Below the pieces are notes generated by a model that did no database searches, was not told the DNA's origin, and saw only the letters and a list, made by a program, of their open reading frames with translations. The translations under genes were made by a program, and so were the position numbers. From contig WIUZ02000006.1 in NCBI GenBank assembly GCA_015956445.1, positions 1,116,001-1,180,000 on the forward strand: a DNA stretch of 64,000 nucleotides. The letters run 5' to 3'. The stretch's first letter is position 1. Each line of letters opens with the position of its first letter. Shown piece after piece: positions 17,848 through 29,800 of the stretch. The DNA comes from Thelephora terrestris. Its lineage: Eukaryota > Basidiomycota > Agaricomycetes > Thelephorales > Thelephoraceae.

Positions 17848-19108
<1,261 letters not shown>

Positions 19109-19286
19109 GGGTGTCGAGAAGAGAGAATGAAGATCTGACTCGATAATCTCTCGAGACTGCCAGCCGCTTGATGAGATATCCACGTGGGAGAGACCACGTG
19201 ATGTCGTGGCGCAGAATTGAAATCCGCGCTTTTGTAACCAATCCTCCCTCTTTCTTTTTCCATACGGACATCTCGCCCGAACGAAA

Positions 19287-20249
19287 ATGACTTTACATCC
19301 CGAAATTCTCTGGGCTCAACGCAGCAGCGATGTTGAAGAAGAAAAGGTTGTCGATCCCCCGTCTCTCTCGCAAAAAAAGTCTTGATTCCTAATCATTGGA
19401 TTTTCAACCGACGTTTTAGAACGTCGTGTATCTGACTGTCAACTTGCCTGATATCAACGAATCTACGCTCGAATACGAGCTGACCTCCACAAAGATTTCA
19501 TTCAAAGCCAAAACTGGGAGGTAAGTCGCAGATCACGCAATGTGACTGATAGATGGAATCTCTGACGAGTCGCACTCTAATCGCAACAGTGCCGAGAGGA
19601 GCATCGAAGAAAGGGAATACGCATTCGACTTCGAGTTGTTCGCAGAGGTCATCCCGGAAGTACGTGCTTTTTTTCGTTGCGTTTTACCTCGCCAATTCAC
19701 AGAAGGCTGCGGCTGATCTCAACGGCAGGAGAGTAAGAAGCGCCTGAATACTCGCTCTTTTTACGCGATCCTTCGTAAGAAGGAGAAAAAAGTCGAGTTC
19801 TGGCCGCGCCTTCAAAAGGTTAAACAGAAGTCTAACTTCATTAAGACTGACTTTTCCAAGTGGGTCGATGAGGATGAGCAGGATGGGGCGATTGCAGCAC
19901 CGGAGGACCCCGATTTGGACATGGGAGGTATGGGAGGTATGGGAGGTATGGGAGGCATGGGCGGTATGGGAGGTATGGGTGGCATGGGTGGCATGGGAGG
20001 TATGGGCGGCATGGGAGGCATGGGAGGTATGGGAGGCATGGGTGGTATGGGAGGCATGGATTTTGAGAAGGTTAGTCTCATCTTCCTCCATACTAATCGT
20101 TCCTCACCGCCGTTCTGCAGATGATGGCCCAAATGAGCGCTCAGGGTGGCGCTGGCCCTTCCGGTTCATCAGGTCCAGATGATGATGTAGACTCTGATTC
20201 CGAGGACGACGGCCCCCCTCCTCTGGAAGAAACACCCTCAACCTCGTAG
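19287..20249 (+). CDS. SBA1: Hsp90 co-chaperone p23 (Sba1/Wos2), copy 1
   Basis: Exons 19287..19346, 19420..19520, 19590..19659, 19729..20070 and 20121..20249 give 233 aa. The CS domain begins HPEILWAQRSSDVEEEK and continues VVYLTVNLPDINESTLEYEL, with the p23 signature EFWPRL...FIKTDFSKWVDEDEQ, followed by a (Met-Gly-Gly)15 run, FEKMMAQM and an acidic tail. p23 binds the ATP-closed N-domains of Hsp90 and slows ATP hydrolysis while clients mature. This is the most complete of three tandem copies and the likely ancestral gene. The Gly-Met run is known in fungal p23 proteins but is long here. Confidence 0.93.
19921..20055 (+). repeat. 9-bp coding minisatellite encoding (Met-Gly-Gly)15
   Basis: Fifteen consecutive units atgggnggn without interruption, differing at wobble positions. 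The same repeat has five units in p23 copy 3 (from 23503) and is reduced to one Met-Gly-Gly in copy 2, so the array changes length between paralogues. The antisense strand is open too and gives a spurious Pro/His-rich frame. Confidence 0.92.
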
Positions 20250-21809
20250 AGGCTCCAGATTACCTTGATCGTTGTAACCCACACCTTGCTGCCATAGAAT
20301 AAATAAAAGACGGTTTCCTCGCTACTGGCCATACCTTTTTTTCGTGAGACTGCTCGTCACAAGGCGTTCTTGAGTTGGTAGGGTTTTCATGCATCTGATC
20401 ATGATCGTGTGGGAACGCGGCGGCAAGAAGCTGACACAGCTGTCGGGTTCGGCTTCCTCACCCTACGGCAATTGTTCGTAAATGTGTATGGTTTCTGACT
20501 GACGACCGCCTTCTCATGGTAGGGCTTGAGCCCAAATTCCTAAAACTACACTGAGATGCTGTTCACTACGTGACATTCGGTCGTGTCGCGCCACACCCAT
20601 CCAGCCTCTCTGGTACTTTTCCCCCCTCATCGTCTGGAAAAGTGAAGTCGAAATGACCGCCATGGACCCCAAGTGGAGGATACTCGAGTGTGCGCGGTGC
20701 GATCTCTTCGTTTGCCCACAGAGTCCACGCAGTGCCCTTGAATGGAGTCTTGACCCCACCTACTTGGTGCGTGAGATGATACTCTCGAGAGTCAGCGAGC
20801 CACTGCGGAATGGGGAGGCCCCTTCCTTGTGCACGTGGTTTCAGATCATCGTTGTCTCAATGTCTGTTGTACTTACCTTTCTTCCTCATGCCGACAGATG
20901 CGCTTTTTGGTTCGTGTCGGGTAACGGACCCCCAAGGCAAAATTCAACCGCCGACAGTGGAACCAGTCGACGGTTTCTTGACGCCAGCTCTACGTAGCTG
21001 TTTCGAATTGACGCAAAACGTAATCGAACGGGCTGCCCTCGACCTCGACGAGGGTTCGAGGCGGCCACCGCGGTGTATTCACCTTCCGTCTCCCTTCGTG
21101 GGCTACTGTTGCGATGTTCCCTTGCCTCTGGGGATTCGCCGAGCGTCCGATTTCTTGATCGACTACGCCTCCGTTTGGCCCAGGGCACCGGTCTCGTTCA
21201 CCGGCTCACGTCTGTATAACGCTCCGTTGTCGGCCGAAAAAAAAACAAAGTTGCCATGCTCGGCGCGAATGGCGGCCTTGGAATGAGCATGATGCATGAT
21301 CGTCCAAGGGAGGGATGTGTCGGACAGCCAATGCCTTGGGCTCCGCTCCCAACGAGGTCAGCATCGTAGCGGAAGGACGGGAATGGCACTCGACGCCTCC
21401 TGCGATGAGTTTGGAGGCCGAGAGTACATGCGTCACGCGCTGTGCCATAAAGTTGCACGACACCTTATGCGCATCGAGGGCCGCGGCGAAGGAATGGTCA
21501 TTGGGAGCAGTGATTTTGATCCGTCGACAGTCGAAGGGGAAACTGGAGTCTGCTGGCATTGTCCATCCGGAATTTCCAAGATGATGTTTCTCTGTGGCAA
21601 CGATTTCTGGGAAGGACATGAAGTCAGCCAGCGCGCACTGATGTTCGGAGAACATCGAGTGATGCTGTGCGAACTCATGCCCCGGAGACTTTGTGACGCC
21701 GGAATAGGACCTCGGCAGTCCCGAGGGCCAATCCCGTGGAATTATAATAGAGTCGTTCAGCCAAAATCTGATCGAAAAAAACGAGACCCCTTCGTTATCA
21801 GTTGCGGGG
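20250..21809. other. Spacer between p23 copies 1 and 2
   Basis: The first about 125 bp match the 3' flank of copy 2 (shared tract ending gactgctcgtcacaaggcgt), and the part around 20750-20830 (gaccccacctact..cgtgagatgat) matches the 3' flank of copy 3 near 23873. Open frames here lack recognisable domains. From about 21663 the sequence matches the promoter of copy 3. Confidence 0.6.
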
Positions 21810-22741
21810 ATGACTTTGCACCCCGAAATCCTCTAGGCTCAACGCAGCAGCGATGTTGTAGTTGGAAAGGTTGCCGATCCTCCGTCTCTCTCGCACAAAG
21901 GCTTGATTTCTAACCATTGGGATTTCAACCGACGCTGTAGAATGTCGTATGGCTGACCGTCAACTTGCCTGATATCAACAGATCTACGCTCGAATACAAG
22001 CTGACTTCCTCAAAGATCTCGTTCAAAGCCAGAACTGGGAAGTGAGTCGCAGATCACGCAATGTGACCGATAAATCGAAGCCCTAACGAATCGCATTCTA
22101 ATCGCAACAGCGCCAAGCAGGGCGTCGAAGAGAACGAATACGCATTCGACATGGAGTTGTTTGGAGAGGTCATTCCAGAAGTACGCGCCTTTTTCTATGT
22201 GTTTTACTCGCTAATTCACAGGAGTCTGCGACTGATCTCAACGCCAGGAGAGTAAGATGTGCCTGAGTTCTCGCTCTTTCTCCTTGTCCCTTCGTAAAAA
22301 GGAGAAAAAACTCGAGTTCTGGCCACGCCTTACTAAGGTTGAACAGAAGTCAGCCTTGATCAAGAAAGACTTTTCCACGTGGGTCGAGGAGGACGAGCAG
22401 GATGCATCGCTTAATTTCGATTTGGGCATGGGGGGTGCAATGATGGACTGTGGAGGCGGCCAGGATTTCGCGAAGGTTGGTTTCATCTTCCTCGATGCCG
22501 ACCGTTCCTCAAAGCCCTTCTGCAGTTGTTGGGCGATCTGAGTGGCTCTGGCCTCCGATCCGGTTTATCAAGTCTCGCTGCGGATGCGGACTCCGACGAC
22601 GAGGAAGATGACATGTAGAAGCTCCAAATGACCTTGATCATCGTATGAGACACCCTGTTGCCATAGAACAAGTAAAAGATGGCTTGCTTACTACCGGCCA
22701 TACCTTTGGAACCTGAGACTGCTCGTCACAAGGCGTTCTCA
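21663..22741 (+). repeat. Tandem duplication unit 2 (p23 copy 2 with flanks)
   Basis: Begins near ctgtgcgaactcatg and carries gactttgtgacgccggaata, an AT-rich tract with tataatagagtcgttcag, the gene, and the 3' flank ending caaggcgttctc. The next unit starts in the same way, with a period of about 1.08 kb. Exact edges need alignment. Confidence 0.7.
21810..22618 (+). pseudogene. p23 co-chaperone copy 2, interrupted by an amber codon
   Basis: The five-exon structure of copy 1 is kept with the same phases: 21810..21869, 21941..22041, 22111..22180, 22248..22475 and 22526..22618. Codon 9 is TAG (21834-21836) where copies 1 and 3 have TGG, the Trp of the LWAQRSS start of the CS domain. Apart from this, all exons are open and splice sites look good, and the p23 signature (EFWPRL, VEEDEQD) remains; read through, it would give 183 aa. 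The Met-Gly-Gly run is almost gone. Either a young pseudogene, a sequence error, or a gene with an unusual start or read-through. Confidence 0.75.
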
Positions 22742-23830
22742 TACTGTGCGAGCCCATGTGCTGGAGAAAGAAGACTTTGTGACGCCGGAATAGGGCCTCG
22801 GCAGTCCCGAGGGCCAATCCCAAAATCCCATGAAATTATAATAGAGTCGTTCAGCTAAAATCTGATCGAAAAAACAAGACTCCCTCCCTATCAGTCGTGG
22901 GGATGACTTTGCATCATCCCGAAATCCTTTGGGCCCAACGCAGCAGCGATGTTGTAGCTGAAAAGGTTGTCGATTCTCCGTCTCTCGCAAAAAGACTTGA
23001 TCCCTAATCGTTGGATTTTCAACCGACACTGTAGAACGTCGTGTATCTGACTGTCAACTTGCCTGATATCATCGAACCTACGCTCGAATACGAGTTGACT
23101 TCCACAAAGATCTCGTTCAAAGCCAAGGCTGGGAGGTAAGTCGCAGACCATGATCAATGAAATCCCCAACGAATCGCACTCTGATCGCAACAGCCCCGAG
23201 AAGGAGTACGGATTCGACATCGAGTTGTTCGAAGAGATCATTCCAGAAGTACGTGCCTTTTATCATTGTGTTTCACTCGCCGATTCACAGGAGGCTGGGA
23301 CTGATCTCAACGCCAGGGGAGTAAGAAGCACTTGAGTATTCGCTCTTTTTCCATGACCCTTCTTAAGAAGGAGCAAAAGAACGAGTACTGGCCACGCCTT
23401 CCAAAGGCTAAACAGAAGTCGGCCTTCATCAAGACCGACTTTTCCAAGTGGGTTGATGAGGATGAGCAGGATGGTGGAGTAGTGCAAGACCCCGATCTGG
23501 ACATGGGTGGAATGGGTGGTATGGGTGGTATGGGTGGCATGGGTGGAGGCATGGATTTCGAGAAGGTTGGTTCCATGTTCCTCAACGCCAATGGTTCCTC
23601 AACGCCCTTCTGCAGATGATGGCCCAAATGGGCGATATAAGAAGCGCTGGCCCCCCCGATTCATCAGGTCCCGTTGCGGATGCGGACTCTGATTCCGACG
23701 ACGACGGCCCCCCTCCTCTGGAAGATTGTGTAAGTTCCAAATGACCTTGATTGTTGTAACACACACCTTGCTGCCATTGAAAAAGTGAAAGACCGCTTGC
23801 TTGCTACCGACCATACCTTTGGATCGCGAG
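22742..23830 (+). repeat. Tandem duplication unit 3 (p23 copy 3 with flanks)
   Basis: Starts with ctgtgcgagcccatg and repeats gactttgtgacgccggaata and tataatagagtcgttcag in the same order and spacing as unit 2. The 3' flank (ccataccttttggat) matches that of copies 1 and 2 for a short distance and then diverges. Confidence 0.7.
22903..23744 (+). CDS. Hsp90 co-chaperone p23, copy 3
   Basis: Exons 22903..22965, 23035..23135, 23194..23248, 23317..23565 and 23616..23744 give 198 aa with all phases intact. Compared with copy 1 it has an extra His (THHPEILWAQRSS), a 15-nt shorter third exon, and five Met-Gly-Gly units instead of fifteen. The CS domain (VVYLTVNLPDI, EYWPRL, FIKTDFSKWVDEDEQDG), FEKMMAQM and the acidic tail are conserved. 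It is likely functional, perhaps with changed expression, because its promoter belongs to the duplicated unit and does not obviously resemble that of copy 1. Confidence 0.85.
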
Positions 23831-24568
23831 TTTATTGAGCGGGGTGCCGTTGAACCTGGGTACTAGGGTCGAGACCCCACCTACTCGATACGTGAGATGA
23901 TATGCCTGAGACTCAAACTCGAGCCTGACCATTTTGCGAGCCCCTTAATTCACTGCGTAATGGAGACACCCCTCCTTGGTTTCATCGATCCTTCCGCAGG
24001 GGCTTACACTGACCGTCACGGTGGGCAGAGTCTCGCGCCGAAATTCAATCGTCGATGAGATTCTCAGCCAGCACAAGGACATCAGAAGTCAGAACGAGCA
24101 CTACTGAAAGTGCGCGAGATAAACGCGGCGCCTGTCAGTAGGGTGTACTTGCAGGACCTGATGAGTGACGTCGCGAGATAAAGGGAAGTAACTCTTCGGG
24201 AGCCGGTTGACCTGGTTCAGGCAGATTTTCAACAACTTGACATTTGCAAAGGATCGGAAACGCATCCCACCGGGCAACAATGTTGGGAGCCTCACGGAAG
24301 AGGAGTTGCGTCTTCCGGAGGCCCACGATTTGGATACGACGACAGAATCGGCTGTGCCCTTCCCGTTTGCAGTCCCACTTCACCTGTTTACAACGGCCAC
24401 ACATTGAGCCGCACCGTGTGCGCTTTGCTGCTTCCTGGAAGGCAGCGCGGGAAAAATGGTTTCGGTTTCGCTGGTAGGTACGAAGGGGTATGAATTATGG
24501 CACAACGCAATGTCCCAAGTCCACCGGAATCGCCTACCGCACGTATCTGGTGACCTCAAGACAAATTA
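23745..24568. other. Intergenic between p23 copy 3 and the F-box gene
   Basis: The part 23850-23980 is related to 20740-20830 downstream of copy 1, so the duplication once reached further. The rest shows no supported gene and lies at the 3' side of both neighbours. Confidence 0.5.
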
Positions 24569-25784
24569 TCATGATTTCCCCAATTTGACCATCTCTCTCT
24601 TCGTCAGCCCTGGTAAAAACCTTTCTGTGTGCCCGTATACCTTCTCTCTCCCCCCTCTCGTGTGGCACATGACCCAGGTTTGAACCGCGTTCACCTCCCA
24701 CAGTTGGACGAGAAGGCGGTCAAGGACCATCCACTGCCCGCGAGTTTCTTCACTCATTTGTTTGAGGTCGGCGAGAGTGATATCGATCGAGACCTTGCGA
24801 AGATACCTGTGGTCGGAGGTGAGGGTTTTGAGCGTCATAACGGCACATACATTGTCGAGTCTACTGAACCGGAATACCACCTCTTTCAGTCTCTTGGCTC
24901 GAGAGAAGTCTGCTGGGGGAGCATCTGGTGCAGGCACAAACGTAAGCCGCTCACTTGAGAAGCAACTGGGGAGGTAGAACTTACTGGGCACCAGGCAATA
25001 AACATGGACGATCTCGAGGGTCTCAGAACACCCCAACGCCAGCCACGGAAGGCCGTCGTCGAAAGAAAAAGTCCAATACAGTATCCGAAAGTGAGCACCA
25101 TTCGGCAAATTCAACAACTGACGTGTGATATGTTCCGTCCCTTGCTTCAGATCAAGTTGAAGGGACCCGGTCAAGGGTGGAGAAATTGAAGGCTTGGAGA
25201 ATTCGCTGCTGGTGATTCCATGACCCTTCATATATAGGTTTTCGAGGATGGGTAGGAAACAAATGAAGTTGAAAAGATGCGAGGCAGGACAGAGTTGATC
25301 GGCTACACGGAGAGATTCGAGAACCGGTGAGGAGGCGTAGGTAGAGGTCTATTGAAGTTCTCTTACTACTGTCCCAGATATCCAGCGATACCACCTTGGA
25401 AAATGCCCGCATCCAACCGTTCCCTTCTACAACTGTGGCGGAGATAACTTCCACACGACCAATGAACAGAACACGGGTCTGACATGCAAGCGAATTTTCA
25501 GGATCCGGGAAAGTCCGCATCCAGGCCTCGATGTGAGCTCGAGAAAAGAAGGAGACTCGACGGAAAAGATGTTTTTGGACACGCGGGACCCATGATTTAG
25601 AGACGAGGCAACATATTTTGAGAGTGTAGCTTTCTTCATGCAGGAGGTCGACAACGTAGTCGCAGATTTCTGGTGGAAGGCGAGGTTGTGACCTCCTGGT
25701 GGACGGTGGCGACGATGTCAAAGTGTCTTCTCCAGGTTGTGCACCCACCGGCGCGTAGCGACGAGCAGAGAATGCGGAGCCCAT
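24569..25784 (-). CDS. F-box protein of an Agaricomycete expansion family
   Basis: Exons (minus) 25784..25367, 25302..24985 and 24924..24569 give 363 aa. The F-box region reads PPEICDYVVDLLHEESYTLK with CCLVSKSWVPRVQKHLF, followed by degenerate leucine-rich stretches (FICFLPILENLYM, RQLLNLPNGAHF, ETLEIVHVYC, ADFSRAKRLKEVVFRF) and a C-terminal LPGLTKREMVKL. Such proteins are presumed substrate receptors of SCF ubiquitin ligases; targets are unknown. Introns of 64 and 60 nt both sit at phase 1. The first one removes what otherwise looks like a frameshift. It is divergent from a paralogue, with 82 bp between the start codons. Confidence 0.8.
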
Positions 25785-25785
25785 C

Positions 25786-25798
25786 ACGCGTCACGCGT
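25786..25798. promoter_or_regulatory. Two adjacent ACGCGT (MCB-like) hexamers
   Basis: cACGCGTcACGCGTaacg lies between the divergent F-box genes, directly before the minus-strand start codon. ACGCGT is the core of the MluI cell-cycle box bound by MBF in yeasts. Two copies in 13 bp between two divergent starts suggest, but do not prove, cell-cycle control. Confidence 0.4.
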
Positions 25799-25866
25799 AA
25801 CGTTCCCTCAATGCTTAAACTTAAAGCTGGCGCCAAATGTCCATCGGGCCGTCGTTCAAAACGGAG

Positions 25867-26850
25867 ATGCCGAATACTCGCCCAAGAAATCAAGAAATCA
25901 CCGACTACATCATCGACCTCCTACACGACGAACCCGAAACGCACAGGCAATGTTGCCTCGTCTCCAGAATATGGGTCCCACGCACCAGGAAACATCTTTT
26001 CGGGACGATCAGGTTCAAGTCCTCCGCTGACCTCGACGCACGGAAAAAAGCATTCCAGAACTCTCTCAGCTCGCCTACATATCATACCCGTTGCCTAGTC
26101 GTCAACTGCACAAGAGTTGCAGCCACGATTCTAGGAGAGCCCGGTCGGGTCCAGTCGTTCTCAAACGTTGTGCGATTGGAGCTCTCGTCCTGTATGAGGG
26201 GCTTACATTTTCACTTCCCATCACGACTTTCTTACCGTTCTCAAACTTACTTTGCATAGATTTCACAACCCCTCTATACTCAGAAGTTTTCGGGTTTATT
26301 TCTTCCCTCCCTCTTCTCGAGGACCTGGAAATAAAAAGCGTGCGGGTGTGCAACGACGCTTGCGTCTTCCAACATTCGACCTCGCCGCCGTCGACGGGGA
26401 CTCTTGGAATTTATGTGGCTCGAGGGATGGAATTCGCCGCACGCCAATTATTGGACCTGCCGAACGGTTGTCACTTTCGGAGACTCGACTGTGCGTGGTA
26501 TCTCGAAGATGACGTTCGGTGGGTAAGGGCTCTGGTGGAGGGTTGTGCTGGTACCCTCCAGTATGTTCATCTTGAGCGTGATGTCGCCAGTGAGTTCCAT
26601 CCACTTGCTTTTCCGGTATTTATTCACTCCCGCATCAGAGACATCGCGAGCGGGTCCGATCGACTTCCCTAAAGCGACAAAACTCAGAGAGGTCACATTC
26701 CGGCCCAGAAACCTCGGCGACGTATCGACCGCCGTCTCCCTCAGAACCCTCACGTCAGACCATAGAGATCTCCGGCAGGTCTTGATCTACGTCCCAGTTG
26801 GTGACTCATCTGATGACAGACTAAACGTTGGAGAAATCCAAAGCCAGTGA
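25867..26850 (+). CDS. F-box paralogue, C-terminally truncated (probable pseudogene)
   Basis: Exons 25867..26191, 26260..26589 and 26639..26850 give 288 aa. It matches the divergent neighbour along its length: EITDYIIDLLHDEPETHR, CCLVSRIWVPRTRKHLF, FISSLPLLEDLEI, RQLLDLPNGCHF, IDFPKATKLREVTF, and LRTLTSDHRDLRQV. Introns sit at the same two places, also phase 1. The reading stops at TGA (26848-26850) exactly where the paralogue has TGG in GQWMVLDRLLVQLW; the frame beyond still reads VDLDRFLVQRW, meets another TGA, and FLPGMTKRGMVEL follows in a different frame near 26955. So the last 60 residues have decayed. A shorter working protein cannot be excluded. Confidence 0.65.
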
Positions 26851-29800
26851 GTGGACCTTGACCGCTTTCTTGTCCAACGGTGGAATTATGAGCGCAGTTC
26901 GCACCCGGGGCATATATATCACGAAATGGAGGGAGGCGATTGAGTGCCTGGAATGGTTCTTGCCGGGGATGACGAAGAGAGGGATGGTCGAGCTAGGAAG
27001 TTATCAAAATTTGTGGTAAGTCAGATAGACGGCTTTGGCGGATGCTTGGTGAATCTTACCTGTCAAGAACGTACAGGGGCGACAGAACGTTCGGACCCGG
27101 GACACGGCGCGGGCCTGAAGTCCCCTGCCGTGCCCATTCGTCGTATCGAAATCCTTCTGTCCACGCTGCCTTCCAAGAATCGGCAAAGACCACAACCTAT
27201 GGGAAAACGAGCTGAACTTTTGTTGCCCGGTAGAACTGTAAAACAGCGAAGGGCGCAGCCGATGCCGACCTCAAGGCCTGGAAACTTCTTGCAGGTGTAC
27301 GCCCCGGACGCTAATGAGTTTGTCTTCAAAAACCGGAAGTTCTCCGACAACCACCAGTGACGCAACCAATCATTTTTTCACAGTGCCACCACAAACGAAA
27401 CGGCTATGTGTCGTGCATACACGACCCGCGTCGAAGACGGGTAGTGACACAGAAATCGTCGGACTTGGCGTTAACAACATTTGAAGACGCCCTTGAAAGA
27501 GGAAAAATGTATACATAGCTGAAGCGGAAGCGTCTTCAAGATACTTGGCCAACCTTGAGAGGTACTCATCGAGGTGCTCATATCACGCCACGCGCGCTGG
27601 GAGAATCGTTTACGTGCGTCAGGAGGGACATCAATTTTGATAGCTCACCGCTGGAAAGCGTCCCCGTCGTTTCCCCAACAGTCCGGAGGAGAGACCCGCG
27701 TCGGATTTTGCCTCCTCAAGCCTGCCTCATCAATCCAAAATCCTAATTTGCAGCTCCCGGCCAATATAGTATGTATCCACCACATGAGTCTTCTATTGTT
27801 CGATGTGAAGGTGTGCACTGTCGAACCCGTACTCACTGGGAAACAGCCTTGCTAGGAGTGATGGATTCCGCACAGTCCAATGGGTCATGCGAAAGAAGAT
27901 GAAGATGCGATTCCGAGGACCGCCTCGGAATGGCTGGTAGCCTCCTCTCTCTGGGGGATTGTAGTTGCGCGCGATGCGGCATCGAGCTTTTTTACACCAC
28001 ACACTAGGGCATCAAGGCGGCACAAGCAATGTGCGCGCCCTAGTGTGTCACTGAAGCGTCCGAGAAGCTCCAACGCTCCCTTAAGTTGTTCAATCCCTTC
28101 CCCCGCAGAGGCTCCGGTTCCCGGTTTTCCCCAGATTGGCAACTCAATATGTGAGTAACCTCATTGTGATCTTCACCCCCTCTCACTTTGTTCCACGAAT
28201 TTTCCAACAACCGCGGAAGCTCGAAAGAGTGATTCTCTGGAAATCCTTCTATCTTTGACCCCAGCACAATGAGTCGTGGTCTGTGCAAATAAAATCGGCC
28301 CATAGAATTTTGAGAGGTACACCAAGGGTTGTCCAATCTCAATGGAGTGAGGAGGACATAGGGATGTGTTTGACGGCGGCATCCTTCGACTTAACCGATT
28401 GGGTGGCTCCCAGGTCAGGTGGCTGGGGACCAAAACTTGCCATAACAGTCCCGGGTCCGTGTCTACATGGTGAAGAAGCCCTCACTTCGATGCCGAAGAA
28501 CACAGAAGATGTTCCTCCCGCCCGGTCTGGTGGGAAACGACCAGCCGATGTTGCTCTTGTCGACGCCTCGTGGGAAAAAAGTGTCGACCCCGAGGAGGTC
28601 ACGGGCACTGGGGCAGAATTTGCGGAACGCTGGGGAGGCGGGCATGAGCTCCACGGTTGCCATCAGACTCTTATTGGAATTCGCCAGGGTACCTATGCAC
28701 GGTGTGTGTCCCACCCTTTCAAATGGCTGGCTCACATGTCGTGAGAACGGATTGGAGACAACACTACGCCTGACGGTTTTAACGTTCTGCAGATTCTATC
28801 TTCGTCTTGGTACAACACACCTCTCCAGATACAAGAAAGAGAGTAGGGAACTCATCATTCTAAGGCGACCCTCGCAATAGCATCCCCTTTCAACTAGTGG
28901 TATAAACAGCACAGGCTCGAAGGTGCAACGTCCGAGGCTTTGCGTACCCTCGAGACCTATTAAAACCTCCGTGGCATCGCAGAGTGCACGGAGTTGCAAG
29001 GCTCTGCTCCAGATCATCCAGGGGTTGGCGACTTGTCAAACTGTCAACCCTCTTCCTACGCTTGCTAATTCTCCCTCAGCCAATTCTCCCTCAGCTCATT
29101 GACCACAATCAAACAACTCTAATCATTTCTGTCTTTTCAAACGGAAATACAAAATCTCCGGTATTCGTGGAGCACCCGGATATCGCATTTCTGAACCTGA
29201 TATTCCCCACCATTACTCCCAACCTTAATCGCCCTCGTCCCTACAGGGCGGCCACAAATGAACTTGTTGACCTCCTGTACCTGTGCGTTTTTCACTTCTT
29301 TCATGATTTGCTAAAAAGCCCGGTTCATCCCTCACGTTTCTCACTGCGTCCCCGAACGCCCGGTTTGCAAATTTGACCGCGGGCTGGGACCGGAGATCCG
29401 TGGGGCGCATACCTTATGAGGACTTGAAATCGGTTTGAAGTGGGTTCACAGTCGGAAGAGAGAACCTCCGAGAAGGCCTTAGATAAGGGCCGGGTGATGG
29501 ATGAACGGTAATGTGGGTCGATGAAGCCGTTAACGGACCCGCCATCTGCGGTTAGTCGTTTGCTCTCTGGCCATTGGCGAGCGCTGGCACGGGTCGACTG
29601 AGGATCATATGTGCGATGTTGTGGTGTTCAGCCACTTGAACCTGGTTAGGCGATCGAAAGAAAATACCTTCTAACTGCATATGACACGCCCTGGAAAAAG
29701 GCCGCATGCGGTGAACGGATAACGCATACCGCGTACCGTTCTGGCAGTGTCACTCGGTGCAGAGAACAGAGGTAGTACTTGCTGTTCCTGTGGGCAGTGC

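Follow-up and report, generated by a model that had tools for sequence, protein, structure and literature searches.

The stretch of the Thelephora terrestris genome analysed here, a 64,000-nucleotide window, carries three genes of p23 (Sba1/Wos2 type), a core Hsp90 co-chaperone normally regarded as single-copy in fungi. The three genes, A1, A2 and A3, lie head to tail at 19287-23744. Elsewhere on the contig, at a distance of about 102 kb, three more copies (B1, B2, B3) form a mirror-image second cluster, giving six p23 copies in total. A1 is likely the ancestral copy; the other five, referred to as the derived copies, all carry a common upstream block of their own. The array probably originated by birth-and-death duplication of the co-chaperone gene accompanied by promoter replacement. 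The window corresponds to C56:1116001-1180000, where C56 (WIUZ02000006.1) is a 2.49-Mb contig in a genome of 40.6 Mb and 60 contigs; coordinates without a contig name are those of the window.

Two clusters of p23 copies

The genes of the window cluster have five exons each with equal intron phases, and all are on the forward strand. A1 (19287..20249; exons 19287-19346, 19420-19520, 19590-19659, 19729-20070 and 20121-20249) is intact and encodes 233 amino acids (aa), with 15 GGM repeats in the tail. These repeats are encoded by an in-frame 9-nt minisatellite at 19920-20059. A2 (21810..22618; exons 21810-21869, 21941-22041, 22111-22180, 22248-22475 and 22526-22618) is broken by a single in-frame TAG at codon 9, its five exons being otherwise open. 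A3 (22903..23744; exons 22903-22965, 23035-23135, 23194-23248, 23317-23565 and 23616-23744) is intact and encodes 198 aa with five GGM repeats. Chance repetition is excluded by blastn (E 0.0 among A1, A2 and A3 for the best stretches). The three five-exon genes reported in a preliminary description of this DNA, with the second interrupted and the third intact, are thus present as described.

That description had regarded the amplification as purely local, which the second cluster contradicts. It spans C56:1033175-1030189 on the opposite strand and consists of B1 (1033175-1032352, intact), B2 (1032052-1031258, broken by an 11-nt deletion in exon 2 that shifts the frame) and B3 (1031002-1030189, intact). 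Taken copy by copy, the frame is intact in A1, A3, B1 and B3 and broken in A2 (TAG) and B2 (frameshift). The tails of B1 and B3 have one GGM each and that of A2 none. In a self-comparison of 200 kb, inverted matches longer than 213 bp come from the p23 clusters only. Each of the 15 possible pairs among the six copies shows an exon divergence of 10-24%; the copies are therefore not haplotypes or assembly doubles.

A genome-wide search with the A1 core, run per exon so that match counts are lower bounds, gave at least 16 exon matches, which fall at two places, both on C56; no further p23 copies were found beyond the two clusters in the whole genome at E <= 0.001. A search of the genome with the Pfam CS-domain profile at E <= 1 gave four matches, three of them over the cut-off, on C45 (two), C2 and C12, and none within the p23 clusters. 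The profile missed the clusters, where introns split the CS domain. The profile search thus neither adds nor excludes p23 copies, and the absence of copies elsewhere rests on the A1-core search. A viral_contigs scan with four aligned copies yielded no relative.

The identity of the copies as p23 is supported by matches to yeast Sba1 (PDB 2cg9) of the first 141 aa of A1 (E 6e-24) and the first 135 aa of A3 (E 1.3e-23). The Pfam CS domain is over its curated cut-off in A1, B1, B3 and the piece of A2 that follows its stop, though A3 gave no Pfam family (E 0.001). Like yeast Sba1, p23 and Wos2, the copies have an alignable core, an N-terminal HPEILWAQRSS, WPRL, a DF..W motif and an acidic C-terminus. 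DF..W stands at the start of the tail in all six copies (in the homologous frame) and is equivalent to F121/W124 of Sba1; according to PMC7864943, F121 matters for Hsp90 binding and ATPase inhibition, and W124 for full inhibition. From these features, the products of A3, B1 and B3 are likely to be short-tailed p23 isoforms. What sets the present system apart from p23/Sba1/Wos2 is the linkage of six copies, the range of GGM repeats (15 in A1, 5 in A3, 0-1 in the others), and the different upstream DNA of the derived copies.

Partner relationships and upstream DNA

Four of the derived copies are related across the clusters rather than within them. Among the two-versus-two sites of A2, B1, A3 and B2, 62 pair A2 with B1 and A3 with B2, one pairs the copies by cluster, and five pair A2 with B2. 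A3 and B2 also have two deletions in common, an in-frame 15-nt deletion in exon 3 and an 11-nt deletion in intron 2. Thus, both types, A2/B1 (type 2) and A3/B2 (type 3), arose before there were two clusters.

The best reading of B3 is a mosaic made by exchange between copies. It carries the A2/B1 state at 4/5 diagnostic sites in intron 1, 5/8 in exon 2 and 7/7 in exon 3. Exon 4 has the A3/B2 state at 12/22 sites, the A2/B1 state at 4/22 and neither at 6/22, and the 3' flank has the A3/B2 state at 9/10. Accordingly, B3 and B1 differ at 0/70 bases in exon 3 and at 57/216 in exon 4. The A3 3' flank is nearer to that of B3 (8.7%) than to that of B2 (26.4%), and the A3 upstream block is nearest to that of B2 (5.3%); this mismatch makes it probable that A3 or B2 also took part in exchange.

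Upstream of A1, a 178-bp intergenic region (19109..19286) separates its start codon from the divergent start codon of a LYS1-type gene. This region has no recognizable counterpart in the 60 bp compared before A2 and A3, nor in the blocks common to the other five copies. A1 and A2 are identical at 14 of the 60 bases upstream of the ATG, near chance, versus 52 of the 60 from the ATG on. Since recognizable homology to A1 begins at the ATG, the derived copies would have another promoter. The presumed promoter block of A2 (21686..21809, forward strand), in which a TATAATA can be read by eye, is common to A3 (22772..22902, forward strand), B1 and B2, and that of B3 is more diverged. This block would act as their promoter. 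Both the distinct upstream region of the first copy, next to LYS1, and the block common to copies 2 and 3 had been described before; the block is real, though it starts at about 21686 and 22772, slightly downstream of the 21663 and 22742 first given, with a spacing of 1086-1094 bp. Within 250 bp upstream, GAANNTTC and TTCNNGAA are absent from all six copies, as is TATAWA; CACGTG occurs at -106 and -92 in A1, -160 in B2 and -132 in B3. This known-motif scan supports no conclusion as to the regulatory difference.

The DNA downstream of the genes is repeated along with them, as the preliminary description had recognized. The 3' flank of A1 (20246..20370, forward strand) recurs after other copies, for example after A2 (22615..22739, forward strand) and after A3, where the flank and the downstream DNA common to that after B3 occupy 23728..23986 (forward strand), the point at which detected homology stops. 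A segment downstream of A1, 20721..21117, recurs directly after B3 at C56:1030092-1029641 with 303/371 aligned bases alike, and the spacer before A2, 20919..21809, recurs before B1 at C56:1034065-1033176. Together these recurrences fit a tandem duplication in which the gene was copied along with the flank downstream of it and the break fell at the start codon. The A2/B1 spacer is 11.4% diverged and has nine indels, eight of which are not multiples of 3, and it is therefore read as non-coding. A minus-strand open frame at 21206-21832, considered as a gene sharing a two-way promoter with A2, was rejected for the same out-of-frame indels between the clusters and for the lack of any Pfam match over the cut-off.

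Rates of change and the fate of the derived copies

Over 129 core codons, the synonymous divergence (dS) of the five derived copies from A1 is already 0.29-0.36, so that the amplification cannot be called recent, as it had been. The ratio of nonsynonymous to synonymous divergence (dN/dS) is 0.30-0.45 for derived copies versus A1 and 0.41-1.82 among derived copies. A branch model, in which the alignment was split to allow for the mosaic B3, gave a dN/dS of 0.31 for A1 and a mean of 0.96 for the derived branches, a difference with p 0.023.

The earlier proposal that the first copy is ancestral is likely to be right, since A1 has the lowest dN/dS and the longest GGM tail and is linked to LYS1; the comparison is unrooted. 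In the probable history, A1, divergent from LYS1, would have undergone a tandem duplication that also took in the flank downstream of it. With the left breakpoint at or next to the A1 start codon, the daughter would have lost the LYS1-side promoter and gained one derived from the flank. A further duplication of the daughter would have produced the type-2 and type-3 copies, and the derived block would then have given rise to the inverted cluster about 102 kb off. Exchange between copies may have generated the mosaic B3, and A2 and B2 would later have been broken by different lesions. A1 presumably retains the standard p23 role. A3, B1 and B3, in which the Hsp90-contact motif DF..W is kept, are predicted to be short-tailed isoforms still capable of Hsp90 binding; the constraint on them would be weaker on average, and some sites may be under diversifying selection. 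As in the general model of birth-and-death tandem families, the array combines tandem duplicates that differ in age, members that are broken and, on the best reading of B3, exchange between copies; the inverted second site and the absence of parental upstream DNA from the derived copies set it apart from that model.

Several observations weigh against this history. The 350 bp after A1 (20371-20720) have no counterpart after B3, so that an additional insertion or deletion has to be assumed for the duplication unit. In the 2.2-2.7 kb examined after A3 or B3 no upstream block could be found, though the simplest tandem model predicts it there. A1 frequently has the A3/B2 state too, and part of the type-3 signal in B3 could therefore be ancestry. 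Exchange between copies makes the branch estimates approximate, and a Pfam scan of A3 gave no family at E 0.001. The ancestry of A1 and the direction between the clusters are inferred.

The alternatives differ from the birth-and-death history mainly over what the derived copies do, and they need not exclude it. It is possible, though we think it doubtful, that all derived copies are functionless drifting relics and that the open A3, B1 and B3 are chance survivors. Their mean dN/dS of 0.96 is indistinguishable from 1 (p 0.86), two of the five are broken, and exon divergence equals or exceeds intron divergence in 14 of 15 pairs (the exception being A3-B2, 0.162 versus 0.164). Stop codons alone also fail to reject neutrality: 3.7 are expected, and one or none occurs in 11% of runs. 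Against drift, gap tracts keep the frame in exons and not in introns, being multiples of 3 in 18/21 exon tracts and 0/7 intron tracts (Fisher p 1e-4); the three out-of-frame exon tracts are the 11-nt deletion of B2 and two in exon 5 near differing stops. In a neutral simulation of the A2, B1, A3 and B2 lineages calibrated on the spacer, 15 lesions were expected and two are observed, and at least two of the four copies stayed intact in only 0.3% of 20,000 runs. This fraction rises to 13-30% if indels are set at a quarter of the spacer rate. The derived frames have thus remained open for longer than expected under one neutral calibration. Moreover, about 45% of core codons fit a dN/dS near 0 in the sites model. 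Taken together, the data suggest coding constraint on the core with fast change elsewhere, and positive selection is possible but unproven.

Such selection is the substance of another reading, which we hold to be rather unlikely: that positive selection has shaped the derived copies into new p23 isoforms, which may be matched to the two cytosolic-type Hsp90 genes present in the genome. A sites test with three partitions favoured M2a over M1a (likelihood-ratio test statistic, LRT, 9.48; p 0.009), with 23% of codons in a class with dN/dS 2.8, and the derived copies alone gave an LRT of 13.0. An LRT of 9.48 was attained by 1/23 and 0/31 simulated null sets (1/54 together), a bootstrap of 54 sets in which null fits had one starting point and the observed fit two. 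The data are small, however, with 129 codons and six sequences, and with A1 and the three intact copies only, p is 0.06. Single-tree fits gave LRTs of 17.9 and 22.9, above the three-partition value, so exchange inflates the test, and undetected exchange would do the same. Synonymous sites have also changed more slowly between A2 and B1 than the spacer (3/81 versus 99/871, p 0.04), which may inflate dN/dS. The support that the sites test lends to diversifying selection is moderate, and the case is unproven. The Hsp90 pair is, moreover, far older (dS 1.8). A more specific proposal, that A3, B1 and B3 are three isoforms expressed under the new promoter, positively selected at a minority of core sites with DF..W kept, and tuning one or both cytosolic Hsp90s unlike standard p23, is unlikely on present evidence. 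An assembly artefact, in which a p23 locus was collapsed or falsely duplicated, had been raised at the outset. Repeats in tandem or inverted order are prone to misassembly, and the A2 stop and B2 deletion can be checked only against reads; the exon divergence of all pairs, the distinct indels, and the unrelated flanks of two clusters on a single 2.49-Mb contig make this explanation highly improbable.

Neighbouring genes and the Hsp90 system

The surroundings of the two clusters are unrelated. Beside the window cluster are the LYS1-type saccharopine dehydrogenase gene and frames that look F-box-like by eye. The former has an approximate extent of 17860..19108 on the reverse strand; one piece matches Pfam AlaDh_PNT_N and the first 57 aa have one match in the genome, and its identification as LYS1 is putative. 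A lysine gene of this type and the short introns accord with a fungal source, presumably a basidiomycete; a 5.8S search of the genome gave no match. Pfam gave no match for the one F-box-like frame scanned. Downstream of A3, at 24561-27014, lies an inverted pair of diverged stretches, also F-box-like by eye (65.7% over 361 bp). The second cluster is flanked by a homoserine-kinase-like gene (GHMP domain), a dynein heavy chain, an RCC1-like fragment and a pogo/Tc5-type DNA transposon.

This transposon (C56:1035047-1037538, outside the window) lies about 1 kb beyond the second cluster and is bounded by 31-bp inverted ends with TA at either side. Its DDE_1 transposase piece is over the cut-off and its Tc5 DNA-binding piece below it. 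A transposase stretch on C23 is 97% similar and another on C60 59%. Also outside the window, a 213-bp inverted repeat (C56:1073418-1073630 and 1083671-1083462) is 96.7% identical over arms about 10 kb apart, perhaps the ends of a mobile element.

Two Hsp90 genes of cytosolic type are found in the genome, on C45 and C1, and a more divergent Hsp90 lies on C9. Over 264 codons the C45/C1 pair has the dS of 1.8 and a dN of 0.038, and it considerably predates the p23 copies. Duplicated cytosolic Hsp90 genes of fungi are described in PMC3774752, a parallel to the duplication seen here within the Hsp90 system. In the present genome, strong constraint acts on an old Hsp90 pair and loose constraint on the younger p23 copies. 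Both cytosolic-type proteins end in MEEID and not in MEEVD, which PMC3774752 gives as characteristic. A limited look at titles and abstracts of the open-licence literature found no report of a p23 array of this kind in fungi, and the available passages of PMC7864943, PMC3774752 and PMC11302251 make no mention of one.

The six linked copies grade from A1, which is constrained, to intact but fast-evolving copies and then to broken ones, and they would make it possible to ask which parts of p23, such as tail length and particular core sites, are free to change. The array would also allow one to ask whether upstream DNA derived from a flank suffices to keep a duplicate alive.

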